From: Isosphaera pallida ATCC 43644
GTDB lineage: Bacteria > Planctomycetota > Planctomycetia > Isosphaerales > Isosphaeraceae
Direction: 5' to 3'
Length of the DNA: 64,000 nt
Assembly (NCBI RefSeq): GCF_000186345.1
Contig: NC_014962.1
Coordinates: forward strand, 4,368,450-4,432,449
Shown here: positions 8,501-47,352 of the stretch, in pieces
How positions within the stretch are numbered: the first letter of the stretch is position 1
How the letters are laid out: each line of letters opens with the position of its first letter
Notes under the pieces: generated by a model
Databases searched by the model: none
Told to the model about the DNA's origin: nothing
Seen by the model: only the letters and a program-made list of their open reading frames with translations
Translations under genes and position numbers: made by a program

Positions 8501-8513
8501 TCAAAACATCGTC

Positions 8514-8547
8514 GAGTCGGACGGGCCTCCCTGATCCCGTCCGACTC
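8514..8547. terminator. Bidirectional hairpin terminator between convergent genes
   Basis: A perfect 12-bp inverted repeat, GAGTCGGACGGG at 8514-8525 and CCCGTCCGACTC at 8536-8547, with a 10-base loop. It starts 13 bases after the stop of the AAA+ regulator and faces the end of the minus-strand M16 peptidase gene. Strong stem and convergent position; no T-run. Confidence 0.7.
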
Positions 8548-8611
8548 CACCTTGAATCAAAATGAACACCCTTGGATTAGGACGGTTTGCTACGCGACGG
8601 GCCGTCGTCGA

Positions 8612-11374: not shown

Positions 11375-11858
11375 CACAGCACGCCTCCGACTCAAACCAA
11401 ACCAAACCAAACCAAAACGAAACGGGACCGACCTCCCTCGACGAAAGCGTTGGTCGCCACGCGGGTTCCACAACACATCGGTACTGAACCACCTTGAAGA
11501 ACAAGTGGAGTGTGCGCGAAGCTGGGAACAGCTACAATGAGTCCTGGGACGAGACGGCTCCAGGAACGCGGTGGGAATCCCTCACTCCCCCCTTTCCAAC
11601 ACCCCACGCCGCGCGATTTGCGCGTCACAACGATCTTCCTCCACCGTGACGCCCAAGGCAGAGCGACGTTCCAACGCGACCAGACGGACCTCTCCCCCAG
11701 GAAGCGGCTGCCTTGTCGCGGACTCCCACTGCCGCTTTTTCCGTGCGTCCCCCGTCGCGGTTTGATTCGCTCCGACCCAATTGATTGGATTGAGTGGGAA
11801 CCAGTTCAACCGCGCCAACGTCCAACAAGACCGACGACCCGATGAGGCGAGGCGTTCC
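11375..11858. other. Divergent intergenic region, M16 peptidase / PP2C
   Basis: 484 bases between the divergent starts of the M16 peptidase (minus) and the PP2C phosphatase (plus). It must contain both promoters, but no clear boxes were found. A pentanucleotide repeat at 11393-11412 is listed separately. The frames that cross the region have no recognisable family features. Confidence 0.5.
11393..11412. repeat. Pentanucleotide microsatellite (CAAAC)4
   Basis: Four perfect CAAAC units, followed by a degenerate CAAAA unit to 11417. The array lies in the 5' leader of the M16 gene, just upstream of its GGAGG site. Slippage there could alter leader length but not the reading frame. Confidence 0.85.
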
Positions 11859-13019: not shown

Positions 13020-13147
13020 AGGAAGAACGGGGACCACCCAGGCTTCCCCAATCCCCTTGATCCCCCCGTTGAAACGGGTCACCAAACCGGATCTCACACG
13101 CGATTCTCCCCGTTGGAACCTCTCCTTCACACCTCGACCCCGCGACG

Positions 13148-13663
13148 ATGATCGAACTCACCGAAGCGCCTCTGAATCCCACCGCCCTTCTCGAACGAGC
13201 CCGCTCCACCAAGGCGGGGGGACTTTGCCTCTTTCTGGGGACGGTACGCGACCTAACCGGCGACCGCGCGACCGCCTCGCTCGATTACGAGGCCCATCCC
13301 GAAATGGCCCGGCGCAAAATGGCCGAACTCGACGAGACCGCGCGACGACGCTGGCCGCTGCTGGCTGTGGAGATCGCCCACCGTTTGGGTCACCTTGAAC
13401 CCGGCGAGATCGCCGTGGTCGTCGTGGTCGCCTCGGCCCATCGGGGCGACGCGTTCGAGGCCTGCCGCTGGATCATCGACACCTTCAAACAAGTCGTGCC
13501 AATCTGGAAGCGGGAAAACTGGGCCGACGGCTCCTCCGAATGGGTTCACCCCGGCCAGGACAATCCGCCCATCCCTCCGCCTCCGCCGTCACCCCCCACG
13601 TCCGCCTCTCCCCCAACCCTTTCCCCCTCTCCCACCGCCGTCTCCCAGGTGGATCACCTATGA
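13148..13663 (+). CDS. moaE: Molybdopterin synthase catalytic subunit MoaE
   Basis: Large subunit of molybdopterin synthase, which places sulfur from MoaD onto cyclic pyranopterin monophosphate. Visible features are FLGTVRDLTGDR, LDYEAHPEMARRKM, HRLGHLEPGEIAVVVVVAS and AHRGDAFEACRWIID, then the catalytic Lys region VPIWKRENW. The conserved domain ends near residue 138; the last 33 residues are a Pro/Ser tail not typical of the family. The stop overlaps the start of moaA (ATGA), so the two are translationally coupled. No moaD is seen next to it. Confidence 0.95.
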   Translation: MIELTEAPLNPTALLERARSTKAGGLCLFLGTVRDLTGDRATASLDYEAHPEMARRKMAELDETARRRWPLLAVEIAHRLGHLEPGEIAVVVVVASAHRGDAFEACRWIIDTFKQVVPIWKRENWADGSSEWVHPGQDNPPIPPPPPSPPTSASPPTLSPSPTAVSQVDHL

Positions 13664-25956: not shown

Positions 25957-26166
25957 CCGCGTCGGCCACCGAAACGAATCCCGGGAAGGCGGGGTATCGT
26001 TCTCCATTGGCTTGGCGCGGTCGGTCGTGGACCGGCAATCGCGGGGTGAGGTCAGAAATCAATCCCGCCCCTCAAAACGCTTTGAGCAACCGCCTGTCCA
26101 CACCATGTCTCACCATCCTACCGTATGCTTCGTTCTCCCCATTCCCCTTTAAGACGCGAGGGCGTG

Positions 26167-27561
26167 ATGAAACAGGGTCTCTTGGCGGCTCTGGTCATGC
26201 TGGCTCTCTCCGCGGCCGCGGTCTGGCTCAACCTCAAGCGGGCCGACAGCTTGGCGTCCTTGAAGATTGACTGGACTCTGGCTCCCCGCGTGCTTCCCGC
26301 GGTTCAAGTCGAGCCCCCCGCTATCCGCACCTTGACCGCCACCATCTCGGCTCCAGGCGTGGTGGAGGCGATCGAGGAGGCTCAAATCGCTTCTCAGGTG
26401 ATCGGGCGGGTCGTCAAGGTCGCGGTCAAAGAGGGCGATCGGGTCGCCCAGGGCGATCTGCTGGTCAAGCTCGACCCCGCCGACGCCCAAGCCCGGTTGG
26501 ATTCGGCCACCGCCCGGCAAAACGCGCTCCACGCCGCTATCGACCAGGCCAAGGCCGACTTGGAAAAAGCCCGCCGCGACCTAGAACGGCTGCGCGACCT
26601 CTCCACCCGACGCGCCTCCTCCTCCACCGAAATGGCCGACGCCCTGTCGATGCAAGCCAAAATGAGCGCCGCCCTGGAACGGGCTCGGCACGAGTTGACC
26701 GAAAGCGACGCGGCCATCCGCGAAGCCCGCGAATATCTGGAACGCACCGAGATCAAAGCCCCCATCCCTGGGGTCGTCGCCAACCTCGATGTCGAAGTCG
26801 GCGAGGTCGTCATCGCCGGCACCACCAACTTGCCAGGCACCGTGCTGATGAGCATCGTTGACTTGGAACGCATGAGGATCCGCGCTGAAGTGGACGAGAC
26901 CGACATCGTCCGGGCACGCCCCGGCCAAATAGCGCGGGTCTATCTCCAGGCCGACCCTGACCACCCCATTCCCGGCGTGGTCGACCGAATTGCTCCCAAG
27001 GGAACCAAAACCGGCGACGTCGTCACCTTTCAAACCCTGATCGACCTGCCCAGCCCCTCCGCTCTGGCCCGAGCCGCCATGACCACCACGGTCGAAATCG
27101 AAGTGGAAACCGCCGAAAACGTCCTAAGCGTGCCGATTCAGGCGGTGGTCCACCGTCGCCGTAAAGACCTGCCCGACACCCCCGAGGTCCGCGCTTGGGC
27201 GGCCCGCGACGCGGCCCGAACCCGTAGCCGCCGCTCCTACCAACCGGAGGAAACCCGCTACGTCAAAGTCGTGTTCCTCCACGACCCGGCTACCGGTACG
27301 GTTCACGCCCGCCCAGTCGAAACCGGCGTCTCCAACGAACGGTACGTTCAAATCCTCGACGGCTTGACCGCCGAGGATCGCGTCGTCGTCGGTCCCTTCC
27401 GAGCCCTTGACGAACTCAAGGACGGCGACGCCGTCACCCTCGAACCCTACACCGCATCCCCAAGCGAGGAGTCCCCCCCACCCGGCTCCGACCCCGTACC
27501 CCATCCTAATACGCCCACCCCCCCTCCTTCTCCACCAGCTATCGCCTCAAGCTCTAAGTAA
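26167..27561 (+). CDS. Membrane fusion (periplasmic adaptor) protein, HlyD/MacA type
   Basis: Adaptor that links an inner-membrane exporter to the periplasm or outer membrane. An N-terminal anchor helix (3-18) is followed by the split lipoyl domain (QVIGRVVKVAVKEGDRVAQG and the mate EIKAPIPGVVANLDVEVGEV), an alpha-helical coiled-coil hairpin between them (about 100-195), and beta-barrel and membrane-proximal domains. An Arg-rich insert (about 345-365) and a Pro-rich tail are additions. The ATG at 26167 has GAGGG just upstream; the longer frame to 26125 is rejected. It leads a MacAB-type set with the next two genes. Confidence 0.92.
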   Translation: MKQGLLAALVMLALSAAAVWLNLKRADSLASLKIDWTLAPRVLPAVQVEPPAIRTLTATISAPGVVEAIEEAQIASQVIGRVVKVAVKEGDRVAQGDLLVKLDPADAQARLDSATARQNALHAAIDQAKADLEKARRDLERLRDLSTRRASSSTEMADALSMQAKMSAALERARHELTESDAAIREAREYLERTEIKAPIPGVVANLDVEVGEVVIAGTTNLPGTVLMSIVDLERMRIRAEVDETDIVRARPGQIARVYLQADPDHPIPGVVDRIAPKGTKTGDVVTFQTLIDLPSPSALARAAMTTTVEIEVETAENVLSVPIQAVVHRRRKDLPDTPEVRAWAARDAARTRSRRSYQPEETRYVKVVFLHDPATGTVHARPVETGVSNERYVQILDGLTAEDRVVVGPFRALDELKDGDAVTLEPYTASPSEESPPPGSDPVPHPNTPTPPPSPPAIASSSK

Positions 27562-27637
27562 CCCCTCCCTCCCCTGGTTTGACGCCGCTCTGTCTTGAGA
27601 TGGTTTCGGTTCGGTTCACGGCCGCGAGGAGGACCGG

Positions 27638-28462
27638 ATGCGTTCTTGGTTCCAACGCCCCCACTCCACTGCGTTCCCCCTGTCCAACCGCCCCCAGGCG
27701 GCTGACTCGCCTCACCACCCCGCGCGTCCCGATTCAGTCCTGATCGAACTCCAGGGAATCCGCAAGGAATATCGGATGGAGGCCGAGCTTGTCCACGCCT
27801 TGAAAGGCGTCGATCTCACCATCCACTTTGGCGAGATGGTGGCGATCATGGGTTCCTCCGGCTCGGGCAAATCGACCTTGATGAACATCCTCGGCTTGCT
27901 CGATACTCCCACCGCCGGGCGCTATCTGCTAGAAGGCCGCGATGTGGCCGGACTCTCCCAATCGGATCTCGCCCGCGAACGCGGCCGACGAATCGGCTTC
28001 GTCTTTCAAACCTTCGAACTGCTGCCCCGGCAATCGGCCCTACGCAACGTCGAATTACCCCTGGTCTACGCCGACGTCCCCGCCAGACAACGACGACAAC
28101 GCGCCCAGGAGGTGCTGGAGCGGGTCGGCCTGGCCGATCGGATCGGCCATCGTCCCAACCAAATGTCTGGCGGCCAACGCCAACGGGTCGCCGTCGCCCG
28201 CGCGTTGGTCATGCGTCCCTCACTGCTGCTGGCTGACGAACCCACCGGCAACCTCGACACCAAAACGGGTCAAGAGATCCTCCGTCTCTTCGAGGAACTC
28301 CATGCCGAGGGTCAAACCATTGTGATTGTCACCCATGAACCGGAGGTGGCCGCCCGCTGCCCTCGGGTGGTGCGTCTGCGCGATGGCCAGATCGAATCCG
28401 ACACGCGGGATACCCCCACCGTCCACCCTAAAACCACCGCGTCCTCGTTCCATACCGCCTGA
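27638..28462 (+). CDS. MacB/LolD-type ABC transporter ATP-binding protein
   Basis: ATPase of the mechanotransmission ABC type. Walker A is GSSGSGKST, the Q loop lies in [15 protein letters not shown], the ABC signature reads [15 protein letters not shown] (Met for the usual Leu), Walker B is [12 protein letters not shown] and the switch His is in IVTHEPEV. About 30 extra residues precede the domain, but the ATG at 27638 has a good GGAGG six bases upstream. It lies between the adaptor and the permease, and unlike E. coli MacB the ATPase is a separate chain. Confidence 0.93.
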
Positions 28463-28510
28463 CCCGGGAATCTCCCGCCCCTCCCGCTTTCGACGCCGCG
28501 ATCCTGTCCT

Positions 28511-29737
28511 ATGAAAACGATGTCGATTGTCGTCTGCGCGTTTGAGCAGATCCTGGCACAAAAGATCCGGTCGTTGCTGACGATTCTTGGGATCGTGATC
28601 GCGGTCACCTCGACGATCGTCGTAGTCAGTGTGGTGCGCGGGTTCACCGACTACGTTTCGGAGTTCCTTCAAGGATTGGGGACCAACGCCATGTGGGTCT
28701 GGCCCCAACGCCCGCCGGGCGAGGCGGGCAAACGTCTGGGTCGGGTCGAGATGGACTTGCGCGATTACGAGGCGATTCAAGCCTTCTGCTCGAGTCTGCG
28801 TGGCGTCTCGCCGCTGATCCGCAACCCCGCCGCCCGCGTCCGCGCTCCCTACGGCGGGGTCACCGACGAGCTGATTTTAACTACCGAGGGAGTCGCTCCG
28901 GTCTATCACGTCATCCGCAACATGCCGGTCGAATTGGGACGCACCTTCAGCCTAGTGGATATTGAACAGGCCCATCAAGTCTGCGTCGTGGGCCGCGAAG
29001 CCATGCGCAAACTCCAACTCCGCGACGACGATCTGGGCGGCACCCTACTGATCCAGAACCGCCGCTTCCGCATCATCGGCATCCTCAAAGAAAAGGGGTC
29101 GTTTCTGGGAACAAGCCAGGATGACCTCATCCTCATCCCCTACACCGTTGCCCTCAAGCTTGATCCCTCGGCGCTTCGCAACGTGGTGCTGACAGCTCGC
29201 TGCGAAACGGCCGAACTCGTTCCCGAAGCCCGCGCGCAGATCGTCAATGTCCTCAGACGCCGCCACGGTCTCCAGGCCGATCAACCCAACGATTTTCAGA
29301 TCCGCACCCAGGACGAGATCCTTCAGGCGTTCACCACCATGAGCGCGGCGGCCACCGCGGTGCTGGCGGGGATCGTGGGCATCTCGCTGCTAGTCGGCGG
29401 TATCGGCATCATGAACGTCATGCTCGTGAGCGTCACCGAGCGCACCCGTGAAATCGGCTTACGCAAAGCGGTTGGCGCGCGTCGCCGCGACATCCTGACC
29501 CAGTTTCTCATCGAGTCGGCCACACTCAGCCTGATTGGCGGCGGCCTGGGAATCGCTCTGGGCTACGCATTGAGCGTGCTGGCCAGTATGCACCCCCAAA
29601 TGGTCGAGGTGATCGTCCCCTGGTGGGCCGTAGCGCTAGGCTTTGGAGTCTCAGCGGGCACGGGATTGGTCTTCGGTATGGTCCCGGCCATCAAAGCCGC
29701 CCTTCTCAACCCCATCGACGCCCTGAGGCACGAATGA
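28511..29737 (+). CDS. MacB-type ABC transporter permease
   Basis: 408-residue permease with the MacB/FtsX layout: first transmembrane helix (about 20-42), a large periplasmic domain (about 45-275), then three helices in the FtsX domain, with VGGIGIMNVMLVSVTERTRE and IGLRKAVGARRRDILTQFLI, a strong family signature. It completes the adaptor-ATPase-permease set from 26167. The substrate is unknown; drugs, lipoproteins or peptides are options. No TolC-like gene is nearby. Confidence 0.93.
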   Translation: MKTMSIVVCAFEQILAQKIRSLLTILGIVIAVTSTIVVVSVVRGFTDYVSEFLQGLGTNAMWVWPQRPPGEAGKRLGRVEMDLRDYEAIQAFCSSLRGVSPLIRNPAARVRAPYGGVTDELILTTEGVAPVYHVIRNMPVELGRTFSLVDIEQAHQVCVVGREAMRKLQLRDDDLGGTLLIQNRRFRIIGILKEKGSFLGTSQDDLILIPYTVALKLDPSALRNVVLTARCETAELVPEARAQIVNVLRRRHGLQADQPNDFQIRTQDEILQAFTTMSAAATAVLAGIVGISLLVGGIGIMNVMLVSVTERTREIGLRKAVGARRRDILTQFLIESATLSLIGGGLGIALGYALSVLASMHPQMVEVIVPWWAVALGFGVSAGTGLVFGMVPAIKAALLNPIDALRHE

Positions 29738-31565: not shown

Positions 31566-34500
31566 TCACTTCGCCGGGTTGGACCCAGGCGAGGGGGTCC
31601 CGCGCACTTCGATTTCACATGTATGGAGATTACGATAAAGATTGCCCAGCACGACGTAGCGAATCCGAGTCGCACCTTTGAGATTAAGGGCATAAGTGTG
31701 AATAAACGAACGCAAGAACAACCCGCGGGTCGCGGTGTGCCACGTGTTGGCGGCTTCGTCCCAGACTTGAATCACGGTGTCGGTCGGCCAGGCTTCGGGG
31801 CGTTGTGGATCCTCATAAACCGTCAGGCTTGTCACATCGGTGGGAGCGTGAAAGCGGATCTCGACCCAGGGTTGACGAGCGGCGGAGGCGGCCCAGAACA
31901 GTTCGTCAAGCGAGAACCAGCCCAACGCCAAGCCATCGGCGCGGCCATCGGTAAGAATTTCCGAACTGATCTGAAGACGTCCTTCGGACATCCACCCTGG
32001 CGTTCCGCCGACGCTCAGGACGGCCCACGCCTTGGTTGGATCGCCGGGGCGGGGCGACTCGGCGGGCGAGAGCAGGTTGGGACCATCGGGCAGAGTCGCC
32101 GAAGCGGTCGCCGGGCGAACCACGCGATGCACCAACGCCGCGGGGTTGGCACTTGGTTGGGAGGGCGCTTGCTCGCCGCGCGGGAGGTCCTCGGTCACCG
32201 ACTTCGACCAAAGCGGCCGGCCATCCTCCGCAAAGCCGCGCAGTCGGCCATCCCAACAGGCCACGATCAGTCGATCCGACTCCGCAGCGCGAACCAACGG
32301 ACCGGCGCTGGGCAACTCACGGCTCCAGACCACGTTGCCGTTGCGGTCCAGACGCTCCAGACGTCCCAAAGCGTGCGCTACGAACACCGACTGCCCATCG
32401 CTTGCAAACGCCAGACCGATCGCCGGCAAAGGCAACCGCCGGGAGACTCGCAAATGGCCTTGAGCGTCGCGCAGCTCAAGCATCCGGTCCCGGGTCGCCA
32501 GCGCGGTCCAGCCGGTCGAGTCGGCCACGGCCAACGCCGAGGGCGCGGCTATGGAACTCCACGAGGCCAAAACCCGGCCGTCGCGGTCCAGCAGGTCGTA
32601 GGCGAAGGTTTCGGTTCCCCAGGAACCAACCTGGGTTTCCAGCACCAAACGGGTTCCCAACGGGGCGACATGCAGCTTGGGAAACCGCAAGGCGCGGGGA
32701 CCGGCCGGCTCGAAACGCCAGCGGGCCGCGCCGTCGCGGGGATCGACCGCCACGACGCCCGTCTGACAAGGCCGCTCGGCGGTGATCCATTGGTTGTTCG
32801 TCATCTCGCCATAGACAATGTACACAAGATCGCCCGTCGGCGGCGCGAAGGCGTGAAATTGGGCTTCGCGGTTGGCCGAGTCGGACACCGGCCAATCCAT
32901 CTTGTCGAACGCCCTCCACGACTCGATCGCCCAGGCTTCGCTCCAACGGGCAACGGCGGGTTGGCCTTCGCCCGGCTCCTCGGCCCGCCAGGCCACCACG
33001 CCGTTGGTGCCGGTAACAATCACGGTTTGGCCATCGGGCGTGACCGCGTGACGACGCGAATGGCCACCTAGATCACCAAAGGCAGCGAACAGGTCGCGCG
33101 GACGAGTCAATTGGCCATCTTGATTAAGTTCGATCAGATGCAGACCTTCACCAAAGACAGCAAGATCACGGTTGGAGGCGGCCGCCCAAGAGCCGTCAGG
33201 AGCGATCTGGATTCCAACCGGCGCGTGACCATGACCGACGGATTCGAGCCGCACCAGCTGGGGGCCGGACTCATCATCAACACGATAGATCACCAACTGC
33301 GGTGGGGTTCCGGCTAGCGAGACCGCCAAATGACGTCCGTTGGGACTGATCGCCAGCTCCTCCAAACGGACCCCAAACAAATCGCTCAGGGTCGGCGGCA
33401 GGTCGGACGCCTCATCCATCATTTCCATGTCCGTGCGGGGCTTGCCGAGAATCGACTCCTGCTCAACGCGGCCAAACGGCGGAGTGGAGCGATCGGAAAG
33501 ACGGGCCAGATTGACAAAAGCGTGATGATCACCCGACCCATCTCCCATCTGTTCCTCTTTCGAGGAGCCAATGACTTGGTTGAGGGTTTCCAGCGCGCGG
33601 TCAAGCCCTCGGTCGTCGCCGCCGAGGATGATGATCGCGTCCTCTCGGTCAATGCGAGGCGCGAGCACGGCGGTCACCGCGGCGCGTTGTGGTCCTGGGA
33701 AGTCGGATCCCGCATCAAATCCCAACAGCCCTTTGCGCCAAGCGATTTTCACGGGGTCGCGGTCGCCGCGAGTGTTCCCGGGCCGTGCCTCCTCCAGCAG
33801 ATCGGTCATGGTGGCCACCGCCACAGTCAATCCCGGTTGGGGAGTCTCGGGCCACTCCATCGCGGTTCGAACCGTCAAACCGTGGGCGTCAAGCATGTCG
33901 CCCAGCAAGCGGCGACGAGCGGCGTTCAACAGACGGGCCGGTCCCACCAAAGTCACCACCCTCCGCTCCGCATCGCGGGTGGCCTCGTCAAGCAAGAAGG
34001 CGATCCGATCAGCGCGGAACCAATCGACTGGGCTTCGACCAGCCACCACGGGATAAATCGTGGGTGGTCCTTGCGCGCTGAGGGTGGTAACCCGGCCCGT
34101 GAGCAGTTCAACCACCTCCAACTCCCAGGCCGCGCCATCCGGTCCGCCCTCGATCGGCAACGGCAGGATCGTCTCGAACCGGCCTTCAGAATCGGTCAAC
34201 CGAAAGAGTTCGCGGGCGTTTACATGACCAGAGCGCAGTCGAATACGGATTGGAACCCGGGCCGCCAGCGGCCGCAACTCCGTGGAACCGGCCGACGCCT
34301 GCCGATCCTGAACCCGCGCTTGAACCCGAATCGCCAATCCTCCCCCGGAAACCACCTGACCGACCACCTCGGGAGCTATGGGAACTCCGGGAACCAGAGC
34401 ATACAGTCGGCCGGGGAACGTAGTGAGATCAACGGTCAAAGTGCGGCGGTTGTCCAAATCGGATTCCAGTTGGGAGGGATCAACGACGCGGCGCTCAAAA

Positions 34501-37500
34501 ACGTCGATGGTCACCAACTGACTCCAAGTTTGCTCCGACTCAGGAGGCAACGACAAGCGGATGAAGCCAGGGGTCCAAGACATCGAATACCGCCGACCCA
34601 ACGACCAATGACGGCCCGCATCCCACGTCGTTGGCGACGACTCGCGGGCGAGCATGGCGTAACGAATCGCGCCGCCGTCGTAAAGGCCAATTGCGGTGAA
34701 GGGATCGTCGGCTCGGAAATCGAACCGGCGTTGATCGGGGTTAGCGGGCGAACCAAGCGCTGCGTCAACCGCCCTGGCGAGCCGTTGCAGGATCGGGAAG
34801 GCCAGGGGAAAGACGCTGTCGGCGGCGTAGCCTTCGGCCAACGCCTGGGAGAACTCGCTGGTCGAACCGGCCACGATGATCGTACCGTCGCGGGGCTTGG
34901 CGTCCTGATCAACCACAATCCGGCCACCGGCGGCGACGAACTCGGCCAAACCACGCTCGACCGCCTCGGGGAGCGGTTGGGTCTGACCGACCAGCCAGAC
35001 CGCCTCCACAACCGGCTGGCCCGCCTGGTTTCGCAAACGACCAGCGGCGACATCTTCCTCGTAGACCACCATCGGCGCGCGATGGGCCATCGTGGCGGCG
35101 CAGAAGGCGGCATAGACCCGTTCCCAGTGCGGAGTCCCCTTGGTCAAACGTCGTTCTGTCAGGTCTTGAGTCCGCGACGAGAGGATCGCCACCCGGAACC
35201 GCGGCGGACACTCGGCGAACAGACCGCCGTAGGTCGTCGCCAGCAGATTGCCCGCGCGAAGCGCGGCCGCGGCTCGGGATTGGGTCAGCGGGTTGGTGTG
35301 CTGCACTCCAATCCCCTGGGGTGCCTGCGTGAGCATCTGAGCCAGATTCTTGAGATAGCCCTCGCCGGTCTCGTCGCGGTGGGCGTTGTCGAAGACCGCC
35401 CGCAGCGGCAAACCGGGGCGGCGAAACAGCGCGGCGCTATGGGGAGCGTACCAGGGGGTCAAGTAGCCTTCCGAGAGAAAGTGGGTGTAGCTCTCGGTCA
35501 TGTCGCGGAAGACGGTGGGGGGATACGATCCCTCGACCGGCGGGGACTGCCACATCGGAGTGGTAGTTCGGGAGGCGTGGGGCATCGCCCGCCGCACTGC
35601 GTTGTTGAAGCGTTGATAGGTTTGATCGAGCAGATAATCGAGCGTATCAGCGCGGGGACGACCCGGGAATTGTTCGGCGGCGACCCGAGCAACCAGGGCG
35701 TCGTCCTGAGCGGTCCAACCCGCGGCCAAGCCGCCACCGAAAAACAATTCGTCGTGGTAGTTGAATCCCCAAAACGAAGGATACCGACCCAGCCATTGGC
35801 CGATCCGTTGCAAACTGCCGGCGTGACGCGCCAGCATATCAGGACGGATTGGTACCCCTTCGCAGTGTCCCAACAATTGGGTGTCCCAAACGACTCCGGC
35901 GGCGGTGGCCCGATCGAGATAGAACTCGGGTTCCCAGCGTCCTTGGTCGGTTAACCCTAAAGCTCCGGCGACTGGCAGCCCCGCCGGTCCCAGATCAACG
36001 CCCAAGGCCGGTTGGTCGCGCCGCGAGGCCAACGGATCGACCACCGGATCGAGCTTGAACGCCAGGCGGTCGGTCTCGCGGTTGAAGCCCAACGCAGCAG
36101 TCGCCTCGACGTGATCCAGAATGCGGCGGCGACGTTCGGGCAGTCCCGTTAGCCCTGGTTGAGTTGTCGTGATCGGTTGTTGTTCAAATTCATGATAGAG
36201 GATACGTTGAAGGGGTGAATCCGGCTCATCTTGGGCGATGTCGAAATCAAACGGCGCGGCCCGATGGCCTTCCAGTTCGACGATCAGGCGGTAACGGCCC
36301 GGCACCAGCCGCCGAGTCAATCCTCCGGGAATGATGCCGGCGACCAGACGATCCAGACCGAACGCCACTTTGGCCAGCACCGGCGGGTGAGGGCCGGCGT
36401 CCAAACGGGTCAGGCTGAGGGTGGCTCGTTGCGGGCCGTTGCGTTTGGGGTCGCGGCGCACCAGTTGGATTGGAATGTCCTCGCCTTGTTGATAGCTCCA
36501 ACGGCCCAGAACCGGCACAATCGAGGTCGAGCGGGTCGCCCCTTTGGGAATCAACGTGACAACCGCTCGAACGTGGGGATCGTCGTCGGGACGCGCCTCG
36601 TCGATCGGACTGTTGCCGAGTTTGACCGCCAAATCCACCGGCCCTGACAGACCAACCGGCCAGAACCAAAGGGTGTCGCCCCGACGATTGACTGGCAACG
36701 CCGTCCACGTGGGCGTCGAGCCGTCGGTCGGACGCGCCCAAACCCGCCAAACCTGATCCGAGGATGGACGCGGACGACCCTCGACCCGAATCGGCAATGG
36801 AATCGGCCGTTCGGGATCGGCTTCGATCGCCCGGTCGGGAAAATCTACGGACACGTTCAAATACCGCGGTCCAATCACCTGTGGACCTCGACCGTCAGCC
36901 TCCCAACGCAGCACGAGAACCTCCGGCGCATTGAGGCTGGCGTACACGCGCCCGGCGTTGTCGGTCTGGACATCGACCACCGCAGCCGCGCCTCCAGCGC
37001 CTAGGTCGGATGGCACGGGCCACTCGCGCTCGATCTTGAGACCACCCCCCGATCCCGAGACGAGACGGATCAGCTTGAGCGACCGTCCGCAGCCCACCAG
37101 AATGGTCCCGTCGGGACGCAAGGCCACCCCGCCGTTACCGTCGCCCAGACCGGGAATCGCCAGCTTCGCTTCAATCGTCCCATCATACGAGACGGTCCAG
37201 AGTTCACCGGATCGACGCGCCAGCAGATAAAGCCACTTGCGGGCTGGATCAACCGCCAGCGCGTCGTACCAGGTTCGCAAAGGGTCAAGTTCGGCGTGGG
37301 AACCCGCCGCGTCGGCGTCGTATTTAAGGAGATCCTTTTGAAAGGCTCCGGTCAGGTCGAACACCGCCACCCGCGACCAGGCCGGATCGAGTTGGCCGGG
37401 TTCAGCGCTCGTGACATCAAGAGCGAACATCCGTCCCGCTTTGAGATCGACCGCCAACCCCATTGGACTGGTCCAACTCGTCTGGTCGGCTCGAAGGGCG

Positions 37501-38000
37501 CGGGTGTCCCGGCTTTTGCGGACGAGCACCATCGCCTCGGAGCCATCCGACCGCAACCGGGCGATCCGACCCGCCGCCGAGGCGGTGGCCGAGAGGAACG
37601 AACCATCGGGTAAAGGAATGAGAGTGCGGGGGGTGGTTCCTTGAGGGGTGTAGATTCGGTCGATGAACCGGCCCTGAGCGTCGAAGACCAGAAACGCCTC
37701 CCGTCCGGCGAAGTAAAACCGCGAACCGTCGGGCGCGACCTGGAATCGCCCGCTCCGGCTGGGCGACTCGTCCAACGAGACCCACTTTTCGACCGTGTTG
37801 GCACCGTGGGCAGGCCACTGCCACCCCATCCCGATCCCGATTGGTAGCAGCCCCACCACCCAGCCCAACCAGGCCCAGATCCACCCCTGAACAAGACAAG
37901 CCCGCGTCGTTGTCACGGGTCGTCGTGGTTCCCGTACCCCGTCATCGCCGTTTGCTCGCATGGGGATCGCGTTCCCGCTTCGCGTCCTCGCCGAACACAT
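31566..38000 (-). CDS. Giant exported multi-domain protein: propeller, glycosidase-like core, propeller, discoidin-like end
   Basis: 2144 residues. A signal peptide lies at about 33-66 (hydrophobic, ending WPAHGA). Residues about 70-385 are NHL-like propeller repeats (VAPDGSRFYFAGREAFLVFD, VALRPDGTILVGCGRSL). About 390-590 are beta-sandwich-like. About 600-920 resemble a glycoside-hydrolase TIM barrel with acidic motifs FWGFNYHDELFFGGG and RAVFDNAHRDETGEG. About 930-1045 have a GATase-like sheet (LAEFVAAGGRIVVDQ) as in beta-galactosidase trimerisation domains. About 1335-1480 end in IIILGGDDRGLDRALETL, like GH-associated alpha/beta domains. About 1540-1960 form a second WD40/PQQ-like propeller. 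The C-terminus (about 1990-2135) is discoidin-like. A G-run precedes the ATG at 38000. Enzyme activity is inferred, not shown. Confidence 0.85.
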   Translation of the reverse strand: MCSARTRSGNAIPMRANGDDGVREPRRPVTTTRACLVQGWIWAWLGWVVGLLPIGIGMGWQWPAHGANTVEKWVSLDESPSRSGRFQVAPDGSRFYFAGREAFLVFDAQGRFIDRIYTPQGTTPRTLIPLPDGSFLSATASAAGRIARLRSDGSEAMVLVRKSRDTRALRADQTSWTSPMGLAVDLKAGRMFALDVTSAEPGQLDPAWSRVAVFDLTGAFQKDLLKYDADAAGSHAELDPLRTWYDALAVDPARKWLYLLARRSGELWTVSYDGTIEAKLAIPGLGDGNGGVALRPDGTILVGCGRSLKLIRLVSGSGGGLKIEREWPVPSDLGAGGAAAVVDVQTDNAGRVYASLNAPEVLVLRWEADGRGPQVIGPRYLNVSVDFPDRAIEADPERPIPLPIRVEGRPRPSSDQVWRVWARPTDGSTPTWTALPVNRRGDTLWFWPVGLSGPVDLAVKLGNSPIDEARPDDDPHVRAVVTLIPKGATRSTSIVPVLGRWSYQQGEDIPIQLVRRDPKRNGPQRATLSLTRLDAGPHPPVLAKVAFGLDRLVAGIIPGGLTRRLVPGRYRLIVELEGHRAAPFDFDIAQDEPDSPLQRILYHEFEQQPITTTQPGLTGLPERRRRILDHVEATAALGFNRETDRLAFKLDPVVDPLASRRDQPALGVDLGPAGLPVAGALGLTDQGRWEPEFYLDRATAAGVVWDTQLLGHCEGVPIRPDMLARHAGSLQRIGQWLGRYPSFWGFNYHDELFFGGGLAAGWTAQDDALVARVAAEQFPGRPRADTLDYLLDQTYQRFNNAVRRAMPHASRTTTPMWQSPPVEGSYPPTVFRDMTESYTHFLSEGYLTPWYAPHSAALFRRPGLPLRAVFDNAHRDETGEGYLKNLAQMLTQAPQGIGVQHTNPLTQSRAAAALRAGNLLATTYGGLFAECPPRFRVAILSSRTQDLTERRLTKGTPHWERVYAAFCAATMAHRAPMVVYEEDVAAGRLRNQAGQPVVEAVWLVGQTQPLPEAVERGLAEFVAAGGRIVVDQDAKPRDGTIIVAGSTSEFSQALAEGYAADSVFPLAFPILQRLARAVDAALGSPANPDQRRFDFRADDPFTAIGLYDGGAIRYAMLARESSPTTWDAGRHWSLGRRYSMSWTPGFIRLSLPPESEQTWSQLVTIDVFERRVVDPSQLESDLDNRRTLTVDLTTFPGRLYALVPGVPIAPEVVGQVVSGGGLAIRVQARVQDRQASAGSTELRPLAARVPIRIRLRSGHVNARELFRLTDSEGRFETILPLPIEGGPDGAAWELEVVELLTGRVTTLSAQGPPTIYPVVAGRSPVDWFRADRIAFLLDEATRDAERRVVTLVGPARLLNAARRRLLGDMLDAHGLTVRTAMEWPETPQPGLTVAVATMTDLLEEARPGNTRGDRDPVKIAWRKGLLGFDAGSDFPGPQRAAVTAVLAPRIDREDAIIILGGDDRGLDRALETLNQVIGSSKEEQMGDGSGDHHAFVNLARLSDRSTPPFGRVEQESILGKPRTDMEMMDEASDLPPTLSDLFGVRLEELAISPNGRHLAVSLAGTPPQLVIYRVDDESGPQLVRLESVGHGHAPVGIQIAPDGSWAAASNRDLAVFGEGLHLIELNQDGQLTRPRDLFAAFGDLGGHSRRHAVTPDGQTVIVTGTNGVVAWRAEEPGEGQPAVARWSEAWAIESWRAFDKMDWPVSDSANREAQFHAFAPPTGDLVYIVYGEMTNNQWITAERPCQTGVVAVDPRDGAARWRFEPAGPRALRFPKLHVAPLGTRLVLETQVGSWGTETFAYDLLDRDGRVLASWSSIAAPSALAVADSTGWTALATRDRMLELRDAQGHLRVSRRLPLPAIGLAFASDGQSVFVAHALGRLERLDRNGNVVWSRELPSAGPLVRAAESDRLIVACWDGRLRGFAEDGRPLWSKSVTEDLPRGEQAPSQPSANPAALVHRVVRPATASATLPDGPNLLSPAESPRPGDPTKAWAVLSVGGTPGWMSEGRLQISSEILTDGRADGLALGWFSLDELFWAASAARQPWVEIRFHAPTDVTSLTVYEDPQRPEAWPTDTVIQVWDEAANTWHTATRGLFLRSFIHTYALNLKGATRIRYVVLGNLYRNLHTCEIEVRGTPSPGSNPAK

Positions 38001-39190: not shown

Positions 39191-42100
39191 TCAGTTGGAG
39201 ATCCGTTCCAACCTCAAGGCGTCAGCGATCACCCAGCCGTTGGCGGCGTTGGTGAGTCGGACGGTCAAACTGGTCCCGGTCAGGACGAATGGTCCTCCCA
39301 GGTTGCGCCAGCCGACTCCGGCGTACTGAAAATCGTTGGGCGCGAGCCGTTGGTTGACCGCGATCGAGGCGATCAGGTTGGAGCCGCTTCGGATGGTAAA
39401 CGGGGCATTGGTGGCACGGTTGATCTGAGCGGTCCAGGTGGCGGCCAGGCGATAGGTTCCCGGGGTCAAACCGGAGAAGGTCCAGACTGCCTCAGCCTGA
39501 CCGTTGCCAGAGGGAGCAGCGTGGAGCGACCCATGAAAGCCCGAACCGGCGTAACGGGTGAACCCGGTGGTCTGGAAGCTGGAATCGTCGTTATCGGCCA
39601 GTTGCAGGCCGACCGGCACCAGACGCACCGCGTCGGCTACGACCACGCCGTTGGCGGCGTTGGTCAAGCGGACGATCGCCGAACCGCTTCCCAGGTCGAA
39701 GCGGCCCAACACCTTCCAGGACGACCCGGCGTCCTGAAAATCGTTGGGCGCGAGCCGTTGGTTGATTGTCACGGTGGCCAGACTGGCGTTCCCTTGCTCC
39801 ACCGTAAACGGCGCGTTGGTCGCGCGGTTGGAGCCAGGGGTCCAGGTCACGGCGATCTGATAACGTCCCGGGCTCAGATTTTCAAACATCCAGGTAGCGA
39901 ACCTCGAGCCGGTTCCCGCGGTGGCGAGGCGATGCCCGCCCTGGTGGCCCGAGCCGCTGACCACGGTGAACCCGCTCGACGAAGCGAAGCCCGCGCCGGC
40001 GTCAGCGTCGTCAACCACCCGCGTCAGGTTCGATTCAGCCACGATTCCAGCGACCTGGAAGGTGAAGGGGTTATTGTTGGGATCGTTACTTGTGAATGAG
40101 ACGGAACCACCGAACAAACCGGCGGTGGTCGCGGTCAAACGCAGGGTAAAGCTGGCTGACGCGCCAGGGTTCAACAGGGTGCGGCTGAAGCCGGAGGCGA
40201 CCACGAACCCGTTAGGAACGGTGATCACGGGGTTGAGAATCAAGTTGGCGTTTCCGACGTTGGTCACCACATAAGTCCGCGTCAGGGGATCGCCTAGAAT
40301 CGTGCCCCCGAAGTCGCTTAGACCAACGCCCGAGGCCAGGGTCTGGTCGCCGTCGCGCAGGTCAATCCTGGGCGCTGCGGCGGAGGCGTCAACCGTGCCG
40401 GTCACCAGGAAGCCGAACGGGTTGGCGTCAGGGTCGTTGGTCGGGAACGAAATGGCACCGCTGAAAATCCCGGCGGTTTGGGCCGCGAGTCCCACCGTGA
40501 AGTGAGTCGAACCGCCGGGAGCGACAGTCGTTTGTCCGAAGGGAGACACTAGGACGTATCCAGTCGGCAACGAGATAGGCGAACCCAGTTGGAGCGGACC
40601 GTTGCCACGGTTGAAAACTGTGAACGTTCGTTCAACCATTGAGCCCACTAATGTTGTTCCGAAGGAGACAGGCCCTGAACCATTGGCGATCACCGTCGTT
40701 CCCAGACGAACCTCGATGTCGGGCGTCTGTGTGGGGGTTGAGTTGACCACGCCGGTCAACGTGACGACGTAGGGTGATTCGTCCGGGTCGTTGCTGGTGA
40801 ACGACATGGGGCCGCTGAACGTGCCGGCGCTTTGCGCGTTCAAGCGGACGGTGAAGCTGGTACTGGCTCCAGGTGTGAGAATCAATGCGCCGAAGCCCGA
40901 AATCAGAGTGAACCCGCTGGGAACCGTGATCGTGGGGTTGAGGATGAGGTTGGCGTTGCCCGTGTTGACGATGGTCAAGAGGCGATCGACCGGCGTTCCA
41001 ATGGTGGTGGGGCCAAAGGTGACCGTGCCGGTTCCTGAAGGAATCACGGTGGTTCCCAACCGCAGTTCGGCGTCGGGCGTGGGGGTTGGGTTGACCACGC
41101 CGGTCAACGTGACGACATAGGGCGATTCGTCCGGGTCGTTGCTGGTGAACGACATGGGGCCGCTGAACGTGCCGACCGTCGTGGCGTTCAGACGCACGGT
41201 GAAACTGGTGGACGCGCCGGGAGCCAACGTCGTTTGGCCAAACCCGGCGAGAATGCTGAAGCCGTTGGGCAAACTGATCGAGGGATTGAGGACCAGGTTG
41301 GCGTTGCCGGTGTTGATCACAGTGAAGACACGGCTAAGTGGAACGCCCAGGGTGGTCGTACCGAAGTTGACGCTCCCGGTTCCCGAAGCAATCGGCACGC
41401 CTGCGATTCGCAACTCGACATCGGGCGTAGGAGGCGGCGCGACGGTCCCGGTCAAGGTGACGGTGAACGGGCTGTCGTCCGGGTCGTTGCTGGTGAACGA
41501 CATGGGGCCGCTGAACGTGCCGACCGTCGTGGCGTTCAGACGCACGGTGAAACTGGTGGACGCGCCGGGAGCCAACGTCGTTTGGCCAAACCCGGCGAGA
41601 ATGCTGAAGCCGTTGGGCAAACTGATCGAGGGATTGAGGACCAGGTTGGCGTCGCCGGTGTTGACGATGGTGAAGAGGCGATCGACCGGCGTTCCTAAAG
41701 AAGTTGTGCCGAAGGTCACCGCGGCACCATTATTCAAAACGCCGCCGTTGAACCGCAGCTCGACGTTAGGCGCGGGCGGAACGACCGAGGCGGAGAACTC
41801 AGAGGTGCCATCCGGCCCGGTGGCGGTGGCTGTCACGAGTTCGTTCGCCAAGGTGGGGGTGTTGAGCGTCACATTGATCGAAGCGATTCCCTGGGCGTTG
41901 GTGACGACTTGAGAGCTTCCCAACCAGCGGGTTCCCTCGCCAAAGCCGGTCGGATCAAGGACGGTGTTGGCGTAGAAGTCAATCAGATAGGAGGTGTTAG
42001 GGCGACTTGAGAGCGAACCGACAATCGTGGTCGTGGAGCCGGTGGTCACGGCGTTGAGGGTGGGAAAGTTCTGCAAGCCGTTGGGGCCGGTGTCGTTGTC

Positions 42101-43588
42101 GCCGGGGTCGTTGGGGGTCACGCCGTTGCCGCCCAGATCGATCCCCAGGCCGCCGTTGGAGTGAATCGAGTTGAAGCGGATCGTGTTGCTCAGAGCGGTC
42201 GTCCCGGTGATCGCCACCCCAGCCCCAGCGTTGTGGCTGAGGGTGTTGGTCGAGTTGGGCGGCGCTTGAGTCTCGACGCCAAACGCAAAGGTGATGATGC
42301 AGCTTTCCGAGAAAATGTCCACACCGGGATCGACGCTGCCATTGCCGTTGACGTCGATCCAGGCGGAAGCACGGAAATCAATCTCATAGTATCCCGGCGC
42401 AGTGAAACCCCAATTGTAGTGCAGGTGTCCACCGGCGGTGATGAACGCGCGGTCGTTCGTAGTGATGCCGTCAGCACTGGCCATCCAGACGATCGGGCCG
42501 GCGTCGTCGTTTTGCCAGAGCGAGAAGTGACCAGGTCCGCGGACATCCACCAGATTGAGCGTCATCCAGCGAAAGGCGAGGTTGGACGGCACACGGGGGT
42601 CGTTGGGAATGTAACGGGCCACTAGGGAGGGACTGGTTTCCTGGGTGCCGAGGCCAAGGTAGAGCAGGTTGGGATTTTGCTGTTGGGGAAGACGCCAATA
42701 GGTTTGTCCGGAACCGACGCCAATGAAGTCCCACGTGGTTCCCGCCGGACGATTAGTTCGAGCCTGGGAAGGCACAAAGAGCAAGGTTCGCTGGCCGTAG
42801 GTGAAGGTGTCAGCGTCGCGATCGGCCACACGAGGAAGCCAGCCGTCGGCGGCCAGGTTCAAGGTGAGGTCAACATGCTCGTTGGTTTTCACCACGTCCC
42901 AAGGAATCGGGCCACCGATCGCGTTGCCGTCGGCGTCGCCGACCAGACGAACCCCATCTTGGGCGTTGCCCCGTCCCGGAGCGCCTCCGAGAATGGAGTG
43001 ACCAATGACGGTTTGATCGGCCCCATCTATCACAATCCCTGGGCCATTGAAATTCTGAATGGCCACGCCAACTACCTGATGTTGCGCGCCGACCAGACGA
43101 AGACCGGGAGTCGCGCCGGCGAGTGAACCATCGAGGATGATTTCCGGGCCGAGGGCGTGGGTGTCGCAGGTGAAGAGGGTCTGGGCGCGGCCGTCGATGG
43201 CAACGCGATGATTCGGGTTGGAGAGAGCCGGTAACGCAGTCGTGGGCCGGATCACGAAGGCGTCGGGCTCGGCATCGCCGCCGGGAAGGTTGGAGTCCAC
43301 ATCGACGAAGCCTGGGTCACTCGTAGGAATACGAAAGTCGATGAGCGCAGGTTGATTGGAAGCGTTGGCGTTGAGGATTGCCTGGCGAAGCGAGCCAGGG
43401 CCGGAATCGCTCGTGTTGGTCACAGTGAAAACCACCGACGGCACCACGCGATCCTCCAGGGTCTCAAACCAGGGCGTGTTGTTCACGCGCGGGTGGAAAC
43501 GATGGGCCGCTGAATGGGCCAATTGCGAGGGACGGTCTTTGATACCGCTTGACAAGATGGAGAATACGCGATGGCGGCGGCGAAACAT
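39191..43588 (-). CDS. Surface repeat protein: anchor-M-like domain, five anchor-D-like repeats, two golvesin-like domains
   Basis: 1465 residues. A basic N-terminus leads to [11 protein letters not shown] (about 41-51), the planctomycete extracellular signature. Then [16 protein letters not shown] opens a beta-helix-like part; residues about 231-440 form a choice-of-anchor-M-like domain ([53 protein letters not shown]). About 600-1180 hold five repeats of about 110 residues ([33 protein letters not shown]) of the choice-of-anchor-D type. The last 280 residues are two golvesin-like carbohydrate-binding domains ending [12 protein letters not shown] and [15 protein letters not shown] 43588 is preferred to a TTG at 43630. 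It is probably exported and surface-bound. Confidence 0.88.
41127..41304. repeat. 178-bp perfect direct repeat, copy A
   Basis: Identical over its whole length to 41475-41652, offset by 348 bases. Both copies encode the same part of two neighbouring anchor-D-like repeats in the surface protein. Silent positions are identical too, which indicates recent duplication or gene conversion. Confidence 0.95.
41475..41652. repeat. 178-bp perfect direct repeat, copy B
   Basis: Identical partner of 41127-41304. Outside these limits the two repeat units differ at many positions, so the identical tract ends inside the coding unit rather than at domain borders. Confidence 0.95.
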
Positions 43589-43808
43589 GGCGGGTCGATC
43601 CTGGCCGGACGTGCGTGGAAACGTGAGCAAAGGGTCCGCGGCTGGAGCCGAAACAACGTGGACGGCCCGCGCCGCCGTTTACCCCGTCGCAACGACGGAA
43701 AGGAACGACGACACGGGCAAGGAAAACGAAACGACCTGGCGAGAATACCACAAGCGTCTAGGATCAATGAAACGAGAAATCCTCATCGTCCTTGACGCTC
43801 ATTTGGGA

Positions 43809-46800
43809 TCAACCGCGCCGTTGAAACGCCGGGACGAAGCGCGAAGTCGGTGAAAGGTCCCATCTCGCGGCAACGGGTCGCGGGCGGTTCCGGTTGGCAA
43901 GCAGCGCGTTGAGCGTTGCCAGATCGCGGCGGTTGACCCCACCTTGTCCGTTCAGATCGGCCCGCGTTCGCATCAGGGGATTCATTGCGAGCGGGGGACG
44001 GCGAATGGCGCGTTGGAGAACCTGACGATCCCGCTGGTTTACCACGCCGTCGCCATTGACATCGCCGCGCAGCAGGTTGGTCTGGAAGACCGCCGAGCCG
44101 CCCACGAGGGCACTATGGGTGATGGTTAGCGTGTAGAGGCCATCCAGCCGCCAGATTGGCGTGGTCATGGTCATGGTCTGGAAAGCGGCGTCGAACGAGA
44201 TGGTGTTCAACGTCACCGATCTTCCCAGAGGATCGACCAACGAGACGGTCGCGGCTTCAGGATTGACCAGCGGTCGGTCAAACGTCAGTTCCAAGCCGCG
44301 CGTCGCGGTCCACGGCAGGGTCGAGACACCTTGGGGATTTTGAACCCCATTGAAGATATCGGCGCGACGATTGCCGAAGAGCGCGACGACTCTCTCCAGG
44401 ACCGTAGTGGACGGAGGTGGAGGAGGCGGGGTGGAAATGATGGTGAATTCAGTGGTCGCACCTGCCGCCAAAGGTACGCTGGTCTGAATATCCACTACTG
44501 GGAATCCCGTAGTGGTCTCGACCCCAAAGACAAACGCGGTGGGTTCCGAGACCACCCGCCGCCCCTCGGCGTCCAGGAAACTCGCCTGGAAGATCACCCG
44601 GTAAACCCCCGGCGCCGTGAATCCTAGGTTGTAATGAACGTGCGTTCCAGAGGGCACGATCACCTTGTCGTCTTCGTTCAGGCCGTTGGCGGTTGAGACC
44701 CAAACCAGTGGCCCCTCGTCGCCTGAAGCCCAGATTGAGAACTGGCCGGGACCGTCCACCCCAACCACTTGGAAGGTGACCCATGGTTGGGCGGTTGAAA
44801 TCACCCGGGAGTCAGTTTCGACATACGAACCGACCGCTCCCGTAGGCAAATCCTCGGTCGAAAAGCCGGGGAAGACCAGGTTGGGATTGGCGTTTTGAGG
44901 CAGACGCCAGTAGGTCGCGCCGGGCTGGACCCCGATGAAGTCGAACGCCGCATCTGCGGGACGAGTGGTCAGCGCCATCGGGCCAACGAAGATCAAGGCG
45001 GCGTCGGGTTTGAAGACGACGTCGTTGGTGTCGTCGTGGATCTTGAGTTCGAGTTCGCCGTCCTCCTGTTCGACCTCGAAATCCAGATGGACCTGATCCA
45101 GCACCCTGCGTCCTAGTCCGGTCTGGACCACCGACAGAGCATACGCGCCCGGGATGGTGGTCAGCGGAGCCAGGCCACTCAAGGTCCAGGTTCGGCCGCC
45201 GTCGGTGCTGGTCAGATTTTCCGAGCCGGTCAGCAGGTTGGGGCCGCCGTCGCGGGTTAAGCTCAGGTCGGCGAGGCTCAGACCGCGTACTGGGCGGTCG
45301 AATCGGATTGTCGCCTGTTGAGGGGCGTTCCTTCCCGAGGGGATCGGGTCGATCGCCACGATCGGAGCCGGCGCGGGGGTTGGATCGGTGATCGTAAAGC
45401 GAGCCGGTACCGCCTGGGTGATCGGCGCGCCGGTTAGGTCGAAGACGCCGAAGCCGCTTTCGGACTCCACGCCGAACAGGTATGTGAATGGCGCGCTGAC
45501 GATCGTTTGCCCCGTGAGCGGATCGCGCGCTGAAGCGGTCACAATCACTTCATAGAGACCGGGTTGGGAAAAGCCCCAGTTCACATGGCGATGGGTTCCA
45601 GACAACAGCAAGAAACGGTCGGTCTCGTCCAGACCGTCCAGGGTGGAGACCCAGAGGATTGGTCCGTCGTCGCTCGAGGTCCAGATTGAGAATTCGCCAG
45701 GGCCGTTGACCTGGACGACCTGAAACGAGACCCACGGGAAGGCGGACGCTTCCGGAACACTCTCGACCCGCACCGCATCAGCCAGCACGATCGAGCCGGC
45801 TTGGGCGTCGTTGCTCAACACGACCCGCAAGACGCCGCTGGTGACGTTGAATGGTCCCGTCAACTCATGCCACATCGCGCCCCGATCGTTAATGGAGGCG
45901 GGCGACCTGGTTTGATCGACGAACTCCACCCCCAAGGGAATCGAGCCGTCGAAGATTTGGAAACGCGCGTTGGGGGCGGCGGTGAAGTCGGCCACCCAGG
46001 TCAGGGCGATTCTCTGGAGTCCCGGCGTGACGTTGAAGACCCATTCGACGGTCTGGCTACCGTCACCCGCCTCGATGGCCAGTAACGACCCATTAAAACC
46101 TTGACCGATCTGAGTCAACCAACCACTTGTGGCGGTGAATCCAGTTTCGCCGTCGTCACTCACCAACGTGATGCTGACAGGTTTAACGCGAGGATCGGTT
46201 TCAACATACGAACCAACCGCCTCGGCCGTCATTCCCTCGGTGGAAATCCCCAAGAACGGTAAATTGGGGTTGTCGGTTTGGGGTAGACGCCAGTAGGTCG
46301 CGCCCGCTTCCACACCGATGAAGTCGAACGCCACATCAGACGGACGTGGGGTTCGCGCAATTGGTCCCGCGAAAAACACGACCTGGTCCGAAGGAAGAAT
46401 CCTTTCATGATCATGGTCATGATGGTCATGGTCATGATGATCATCGTGATCATGATCTTCCAAAATCGCTCCAAGGGTCCAAACGCCTCGGTTGAGCCTC
46501 ATATCGAGGTCGGCATGTCCCGCGGAGTGCAACGTCGCGCCCACGCCTCGGGGCGAGATTGTCAGAATGTAATTGCCAGGCCGCTCGGTGAGGCTCTCCA
46601 AACCGTCAAGGGTCCACGTGATCTCGTCGTCTGTGATCAGGGTCTCTCGACCCGTGAGCAAATTGGGACCGCCATCGCGGGTTAAGCTCAGGTCGCCGAG
46701 ATCGAAGCCGGTCACTGGCTGATCGAATTGAATGACCGCCTGACCGATCGGGTTCGCTCCCGAAGCGATCGGCAACACCCGACCCGTGGTCAACAGGGTG

Positions 46801-46886
46801 CGGGTTTCCAGAGAGAACACCATCGGCGTCCAGAAACGTCGCGTCCGAATCGAGCGACGAACGCCGGAGAGTCCAAGTCGGATCAT
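43809..46886 (-). CDS. Dockerin-tailed surface protein with two anchor-M-like modules and a His/Asp run
   Basis: 1025 residues. The basic N-terminus ends in FSLETRTLLTTG, the planctomycete extracellular signature. Two modules follow. Each has an Ig-like part (FDQPVTGFDLGDLSLTRDGG and FDRPVRGLSLADLSLTRDGG) and an anchor-M-like domain (FDFIGVEAGATYWRLPQTDN and FDFIGVQPGATYWRLPQNAN). Module 1 carries a 17-residue His/Asp run (about 144-160) and has a golvesin-like domain inserted into its anchor-M domain. The C-terminus is a type I dockerin pair (GDVNGDGVVNQRDRQVL and ADLNGQGGVNRRDLATLNAL). ATG 46886 is preferred to a TTG at 46958. It lies 220 bases upstream of the other surface gene on the same strand. 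Confidence 0.88.
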   Translation of the reverse strand: MIRLGLSGVRRSIRTRRFWTPMVFSLETRTLLTTGRVLPIASGANPIGQAVIQFDQPVTGFDLGDLSLTRDGGPNLLTGRETLITDDEITWTLDGLESLTERPGNYILTISPRGVGATLHSAGHADLDMRLNRGVWTLGAILEDHDHDDHHDHDHHDHDHERILPSDQVVFFAGPIARTPRPSDVAFDFIGVEAGATYWRLPQTDNPNLPFLGISTEGMTAEAVGSYVETDPRVKPVSITLVSDDGETGFTATSGWLTQIGQGFNGSLLAIEAGDGSQTVEWVFNVTPGLQRIALTWVADFTAAPNARFQIFDGSIPLGVEFVDQTRSPASINDRGAMWHELTGPFNVTSGVLRVVLSNDAQAGSIVLADAVRVESVPEASAFPWVSFQVVQVNGPGEFSIWTSSDDGPILWVSTLDGLDETDRFLLLSGTHRHVNWGFSQPGLYEVIVTASARDPLTGQTIVSAPFTYLFGVESESGFGVFDLTGAPITQAVPARFTITDPTPAPAPIVAIDPIPSGRNAPQQATIRFDRPVRGLSLADLSLTRDGGPNLLTGSENLTSTDGGRTWTLSGLAPLTTIPGAYALSVVQTGLGRRVLDQVHLDFEVEQEDGELELKIHDDTNDVVFKPDAALIFVGPMALTTRPADAAFDFIGVQPGATYWRLPQNANPNLVFPGFSTEDLPTGAVGSYVETDSRVISTAQPWVTFQVVGVDGPGQFSIWASGDEGPLVWVSTANGLNEDDKVIVPSGTHVHYNLGFTAPGVYRVIFQASFLDAEGRRVVSEPTAFVFGVETTTGFPVVDIQTSVPLAAGATTEFTIISTPPPPPPSTTVLERVVALFGNRRADIFNGVQNPQGVSTLPWTATRGLELTFDRPLVNPEAATVSLVDPLGRSVTLNTISFDAAFQTMTMTTPIWRLDGLYTLTITHSALVGGSAVFQTNLLRGDVNGDGVVNQRDRQVLQRAIRRPPLAMNPLMRTRADLNGQGGVNRRDLATLNALLANRNRPRPVAARWDLSPTSRFVPAFQRRG
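46404..46459 (-). repeat. Low-complexity His/Asp codon tract
   Basis: A run of GAT/GAC and CAT/CAC codons encodes DHDHDDHHDHDHHDHDH (nine His, eight Asp) at the base of the first anchor-M-like domain. The second module has ordinary sequence (LELKIHDDTNDVV) in the same place. Likely a metal-binding segment; the repeat is prone to slippage in units of six bases. Confidence 0.9.
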
Positions 46887-47352
46887 AGATTGATTGTTCT
46901 CAACAGAGGTGGAATGACTCGTGAGGCGCGTCCTGATCCGCCACGATCGGGAAACCAACGATCACCAACGACTCATAGGGCGGTGGTTCTCAGTCGTTGA
47001 CACTTTGACACTTTGCGCGACTCAAGGCGACTCGGTCTCCATTCCTTCGCCAACCTGACCCGCCATTTTCAAAACCGCAATCTCAGTATCACAGACCGAC
47101 TCGGTGCTGTCCAGTCCTTGTTGAGAATTCATTCGCGGTTTTAGTTAATTTGGGAGGAGTTGCGGTCGGTTTGCTGAGGCAAGCACCCATTTCCTGTGAC
47201 TGGGCGATCTTGCCGGGTCGCGTGATTGCGAGCGACGATAGGTCGATCATCGACGCCACGCCACCGACCAGCGTTCTTGGCTGTGGTTTTTTGTTTTGTT
47301 TGTGGCACGAGAGGAGGTTGACGATTGAAATCACTCTTTGGGGCTTTTGTAC
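46887..47352. other. Gene-free stretch upstream of the dockerin-tailed protein
   Basis: 466 bases with no supported gene. It contains a short tandem TTGACACT-TTGACACT (about 46999-47014) on the plus strand and an AT-rich patch at 47275-47350 just past tRNA-Arg. The promoter of the dockerin protein gene must lie here on the minus strand, but I cannot place it. Confidence 0.4.

Follow-up and report, generated by a model that had tools for sequence, protein, structure and literature searches.

Three glycoside hydrolase families, GH164, GH42, and GH151, provide the closest described counterparts of the protein analyzed here. The GH164 β-mannosidase Bs164 (6t6g, 6t5o, 7oms) consists of a TIM barrel, a trimerization domain, and a β domain, and uses Glu160 at strand β4 and Glu297 at strand β7 (PMC7105311). 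The same three-domain core is found in the GH42 β-galactosidases (Gan42B, 5dfa/4oif; A4, 1kwg; 3tts), and cores of this kind form trimers in both families. In the GH151 α-L-fucosidase ALfuk2 (6tvk), the nucleophile is Asp154 at β4 and the acid/base is Glu235 at β6 (PMC10154630). ALfuk2 has no propellers, and Bs164 has neither propellers nor an MG2-like or discoidin domain. Here we describe a 2144-residue protein of Isosphaera pallida, a thermophilic, gliding, filamentous planctomycete from hot springs (strain IS1B; PMC3072084), in which such a unit is embedded among propellers and probable MG2-like and discoidin-like domains. Its parts are ordinary and their assembly is unusual, namely an unclassified GH42-type fold within a giant exported architecture that is common to several PVC phyla. 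The analyzed window comprises 64,000 nucleotides (positions 4,368,450 to 4,432,449) of the 5,472,964-base chromosome; the whole genome has 5,529,304 bases in two contigs.

The gene occupies positions 31566-38000 of the window on the minus strand as a single uninterrupted reading frame, as the first-pass annotation had called it, and the purine-rich, ribosome-binding stretch AGGGGGG lies just 5' of its ATG. A plus-strand reading frame of 874 aa (33330-35954) overlaps it, and codon-position GC does not tell the two strands apart at this place, both of which would suit a chance frame opposite a plus-strand gene. That explanation has practically no probability left and is ruled out by the homologues, since collinear proteins of 1831-2019 aa are encoded in other genomes; in addition, the minus-strand product has recognizable Pfam domains. 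Family profiles found no second copy in the I. pallida genome, and the gene is therefore single-copy. A DUF1559 pseudopilin gene and two genes for large Golvesin_C proteins lie upstream of it in the same orientation, and downstream on the opposite strand is a gene for a 415-aa protein with no Pfam match; none of these neighbors in the window hints at a pathway. The two Golvesin_C proteins (39191-46958, minus strand; 1479 and 1049 aa) also look exported. The longer one has about five ASPM/SPD-2/Hydin-type Ig repeats, partly near-identical, and the shorter one has a dockerin type I match. Elsewhere in the window (26125-29737, plus strand), a MacA/HlyD-like adaptor, an ABC ATPase, and a MacB/FtsX-type permease stand in a row and form a MacAB-type export system.

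The central part of the protein was modeled with AF2 as residues 590-1490 (pLDDT 59, with the N-terminal half of the barrel and the later alpha/beta domain poorly modeled), and the N-terminal part as residues 60-600 (pLDDT 70); a part of the relatives from other genomes was left out of the input of these runs. Residues 590-1204 model as the GH42/GH164/GH151 unit, comprising the TIM barrel (residues 593-926; 35223-36224), a GATase-like domain equivalent to the trimerization domain B of GH42 and GH164 (residues 927-1090; 34731-35222), and a β domain equivalent to GH42 domain C (residues 1091-1205; 34386-34730). Foldseek ranked the GH151 structure 6tvk best (5e-12) and also returned GH164 and GH42 structures. 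VIA gave its best match with Bs164 (Z 17.6 over 471 residues at 4.0 Å, about 10% identity), along model residues 1-615 and across all three domains, and further matches with ALfuk2 (Z 16.9, about 9% identity) and GH42 enzymes (Z about 16). The three-domain order of GH42 and that of Bs164 are thus both recovered, and for the GATase-like domain a member of the wider family described below matches PF08532 at 6e-4. The VIA matches also include one glucosyltransferase that shares this core fold, and similarity of fold is not by itself evidence of function.

By sequence, no glycosidase family was found for the core in Pfam or NCBIfam. The GH42 model PF02449 matched neither this protein's core nor the cores of 12 relatives at 0.1, core profiles compared with the PDB returned no glycosidase, and hhalign found nothing between the family and planctomycete proteins that PF02449 matches. 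The WD-40 and sorting-nexin matches of the core profiles to the PDB were taken as chance. The TIM barrel and GATase-like domain that the first-pass annotation had read from the sequence are therefore upheld by structure comparison, and the search against glycoside hydrolase families that it had suggested came back empty in these libraries.

Three acids of the barrel are candidates for catalysis. The segment YPSFWGFNYHDE751 aligns without gaps between anchor motifs to YPAFRGWSWAAN of the relatives, which places Glu751 (35748-35750) at the β4 acid/base position; this placement comes from the sequence, as the model cannot be relied on in this region (pLDDT below 50). In the 12 relatives, this segment ends in Asn eleven times and in Leu once. 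Glu844 (35469-35471) pairs with a Glu that is invariant in the 12 relatives and usually an acid in the wider family, and lies four residues past strand β6 in the model. Asp871 (35388-35390), in the motif VFD871, pairs with the invariant HPE of the 12 relatives, so that Asp takes the place of their Glu at β7, and is the last residue of that strand. The protein thus has an acid at β4, β6, and β7. The earlier expectation that such acids sit at strand ends could be looked at for β6 and β7 only, because of the low pLDDT at β4.

The canonical clan GH-A pair of two Glu residues is not intact in this protein, in that the nucleophile position at β7, a Glu in GH42 and in Bs164, aligns with Asp871. The acid/base of the GH42 and GH164 schemes would be Glu751. 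A pair of the GH151 type could be formed by Glu751, which is preceded by Asp750 and would correspond to Asp154 of ALfuk2, together with Glu844, so the GH164 and GH151 schemes are both possible. In the wider family, several branches have a DE motif at or near β4, an acid near β6 is common, and β7 varies, although these counts are approximate because the automatic alignment slips by a few residues where members are distant. With Asn or Leu at β4 in the relatives and Asp at β7 here, there is no obvious conservation of catalysis. The barrel and a plausible acid set are nevertheless both present, so neither of the two absences that the first-pass annotation had named as fatal to a glycosidase-like core was encountered.

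The domains in front of the core are a likely signal peptide, read by eye as a hydrophobic stretch (residues 33-68; 37797-37904), a propeller (residues 76-378; 36867-37775), and two beta-sandwich regions (residues 379-592 with approximate boundaries; 36225-36866). The NHL-like character that had been suggested for the propeller is confirmed at the level of fold, since Foldseek matched its model to NHL domains and to Vgb lyase with TM-scores of up to 0.71 of the target. With default filters, the 2144-aa protein was not found by a profile of the relatives' N-terminal propellers; the unfiltered and hhalign scores (33.8, compared with at most 20.4 for shuffled sequences) are only suggestive of a link. 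The beta-sandwich regions, seen as strands in the AF2 model and conserved in relatives, had been anticipated as a single beta domain.

Behind the core, residues 1206-1320 (34041-34385) probably form an MG2-like beta-sandwich, judging by the relatives: PF01835 (MG2) has no match in the protein itself and stays below its cut-off in wider-family members, and the family profile reaches the alpha-2-macroglobulin MG2 chain 2p9r at 0.055. The alpha/beta domain that follows (residues 1330-1490; 33531-34013) is poorly modeled and is recognized at residues 1431-1478 (1.2e-5) by a profile of the wider-family members P0003-P0007 that was built without the 2144-aa protein. The second propeller, of PQQ/WD40 type (residues 1540-1940; 32181-33383), passes the Pfam model PF13360 (PQQ_2) at residues 1749-1938 with 4e-8 and 33.6 bits (cut-off 27.6), and NCBIfam adds only a sub-threshold BamB fragment. 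The discoidin-like region (residues 1985-2135; 31596-32048) scores below the cut-offs of the two F5/8 type C models (21.7 versus 28.2 and 22.0 versus 27.8 bits; 2e-4). A C-terminal profile made from relatives only reaches residue 2119 and recovers the propeller and discoidin-like region together at 2.3e-28. The alpha/beta domain, WD40/PQQ-like propeller, and discoidin-like end of the first-pass annotation are thus all retained, as is most of its domain order, from which the GH42-type C domain and the MG2-like domain, both between the GATase-like and alpha/beta domains, had been missing.

The family went unnoticed in a search of 99 relatives with the whole protein, apparently because the few candidates scored in each genome were crowded by propellers. 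When the phylum was searched with the core only, the matches fell mostly within reading frames of 1297-2348 aa, several of them collinear with the 2144-aa protein, and at 1e-10 a profile of seven cores detects the wider family in 32 of 392 planctomycete genomes. Two clear relatives (L087, L088) belong to the same taxonomic family as I. pallida. When GTDB contigs were scanned with the closest subfamily, twelve loci with two propellers (L096-L107) emerged, nine of them full-length and three (L101, L106, L107) fragments at contig ends. They come from an Isosphaeraceae MAG, Zavarzinella formosa (L097), several planctomycete MAGs, a Verrucomicrobiales MAG, and a Lentisphaerae MAG, so that the architecture spans Planctomycetota, Verrucomicrobiota, and Lentisphaerota. 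The first-pass annotation had called it unrecognized, which is correct for the family libraries searched; it is, however, not unique to the I. pallida genome.

The full-length members of this two-propeller subfamily share the domain order of the 2144-aa protein, with a signal region, N-terminal propeller, beta-sandwich regions, barrel, GATase-like domain, C domain, PQQ propeller, and discoidin region, at 19-27% identity by domain; the barrel and GATase-like domain are among their best conserved domains. They differ from it in having Asn (in one case Leu) at β4 and Glu at β7 and in lacking the alpha/beta domain, which the 2144-aa protein shares with the P0003-P0007 branch; some also lack the MG2-like region. 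In the core tree, the 2144-aa protein is a long-branch sister of the subfamily with a support of 0.77, so this placement is moderately secure. The wider family (P0003-P0007, L052-L071, L089, L090) shares the barrel, GATase-like, C, and MG2-like domains and often the alpha/beta domain, but has other N-terminal domains; several of its members lack propellers or a discoidin domain, and the acid positions vary. In one MAG (RYN_439; L103, 7929-13655), an in-frame stop within the C-terminal propeller divides the homologue into frames 7929-12347 and 12351-13655, reflecting either a sequencing error or a broken gene. One planctomycete genome (G152; JABTUM010000001, H5_PLA8; loci L014, L015, L089, L090) encodes about six or seven giant family members, including two tandem pairs. 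Many genomes of a single planctomycete family encode a relative of 1113-1128 aa (L059, L063, L071); it matches no glycosidase family over its cut-off, and in L059 it carries a LamG domain and an MG2-like domain.

Gene context weakly supports a role related to carbohydrates. At one locus (L100), the homologue lies between genes for a BD-FAE-type esterase and a GH39 enzyme on the same strand, and at another (L105) a GH97 gene is a few kilobases away; the other relatives have no conserved neighbors.

The reading that we favor, with limited confidence, is that the 2144-aa protein is an exported, possibly trimeric glycosidase acting on a complex polysaccharide. Its barrel would most likely cleave a glycosidic bond with Glu751 paired either with Asp871, in the clan GH-A arrangement, or with Glu844, in the GH151 arrangement. 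The two propellers and the MG2-like and discoidin domains would anchor the enzyme to a polymer, the cell envelope, or the sheath, and the core may form trimers, as GH42 and GH164 cores do. The modeled fold of the core supports this reading, as do the N-terminal propeller recognized by fold, the PQQ propeller recognized by Pfam, the C-terminal half recognized by the relatives-only profile, the good conservation of the barrel and GATase-like domain in the subfamily, the acids aligned to all three usual positions, and the neighbors at L100. The missing family match by sequence, the drifting acids, and the low pLDDT at β4 count against it, together with the absence of a pathway in the window, the lack of the L100 context in other relatives, and the strongly reduced CAZyme set of I. 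pallida (PMC5352709). Several observations would suit a barrel that binds glycan without cutting it, in a surface adhesin, sheath component, or scaffold: the catalytic positions drift strongly across the family, the β4 acid is absent from all twelve members of the close subfamily, the folds of the two propellers and the discoidin domain are ones that serve binding, and the 2144-aa protein sits on a long branch. We consider such a pseudo-glycosidase a weaker though serious candidate, as the protein itself has acids at β4, β6, and β7, and within the subfamily the binding domains are no better conserved than the barrel and GATase-like domain.

Two further possibilities concern the reaction itself. 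The core might work by a different mechanism, such as that of a transglycosylase or lyase, and use residues apart from Glu751, Glu844, and Asp871 on a glycosidic bond or one related to it. The glucosyltransferase among the fold matches points this way, and a non-classical pair is conceivable because the acids invariant in the subfamily are those at β6 and β7 and not at β4; a shared fold shows no reaction, and we hold this mechanism to be quite unlikely. A bolder extension of the glycosidase reading, speculative and on balance improbable, would make the family a new class of glycosidases whose catalytic pair has migrated around a GH42-type barrel, the acids being at β6 and β7 but not at β4 in the two-propeller subfamily, at β4 and β6 in other branches, and at all three positions in the 2144-aa protein, within three-subunit surface assemblies displaying six propellers.

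The analysis adds to the GH42-type folds an unclassified and previously unnamed group of giant secreted proteins that extends from planctomycetes to Verrucomicrobiota and Lentisphaerota, and it names the residues Glu751, Glu844, and Asp871 as open to testing. If active, the 2144-aa protein would account for part of the hidden carbohydrate-active repertoire that has been suspected in Isosphaeraceae (PMC5352709).
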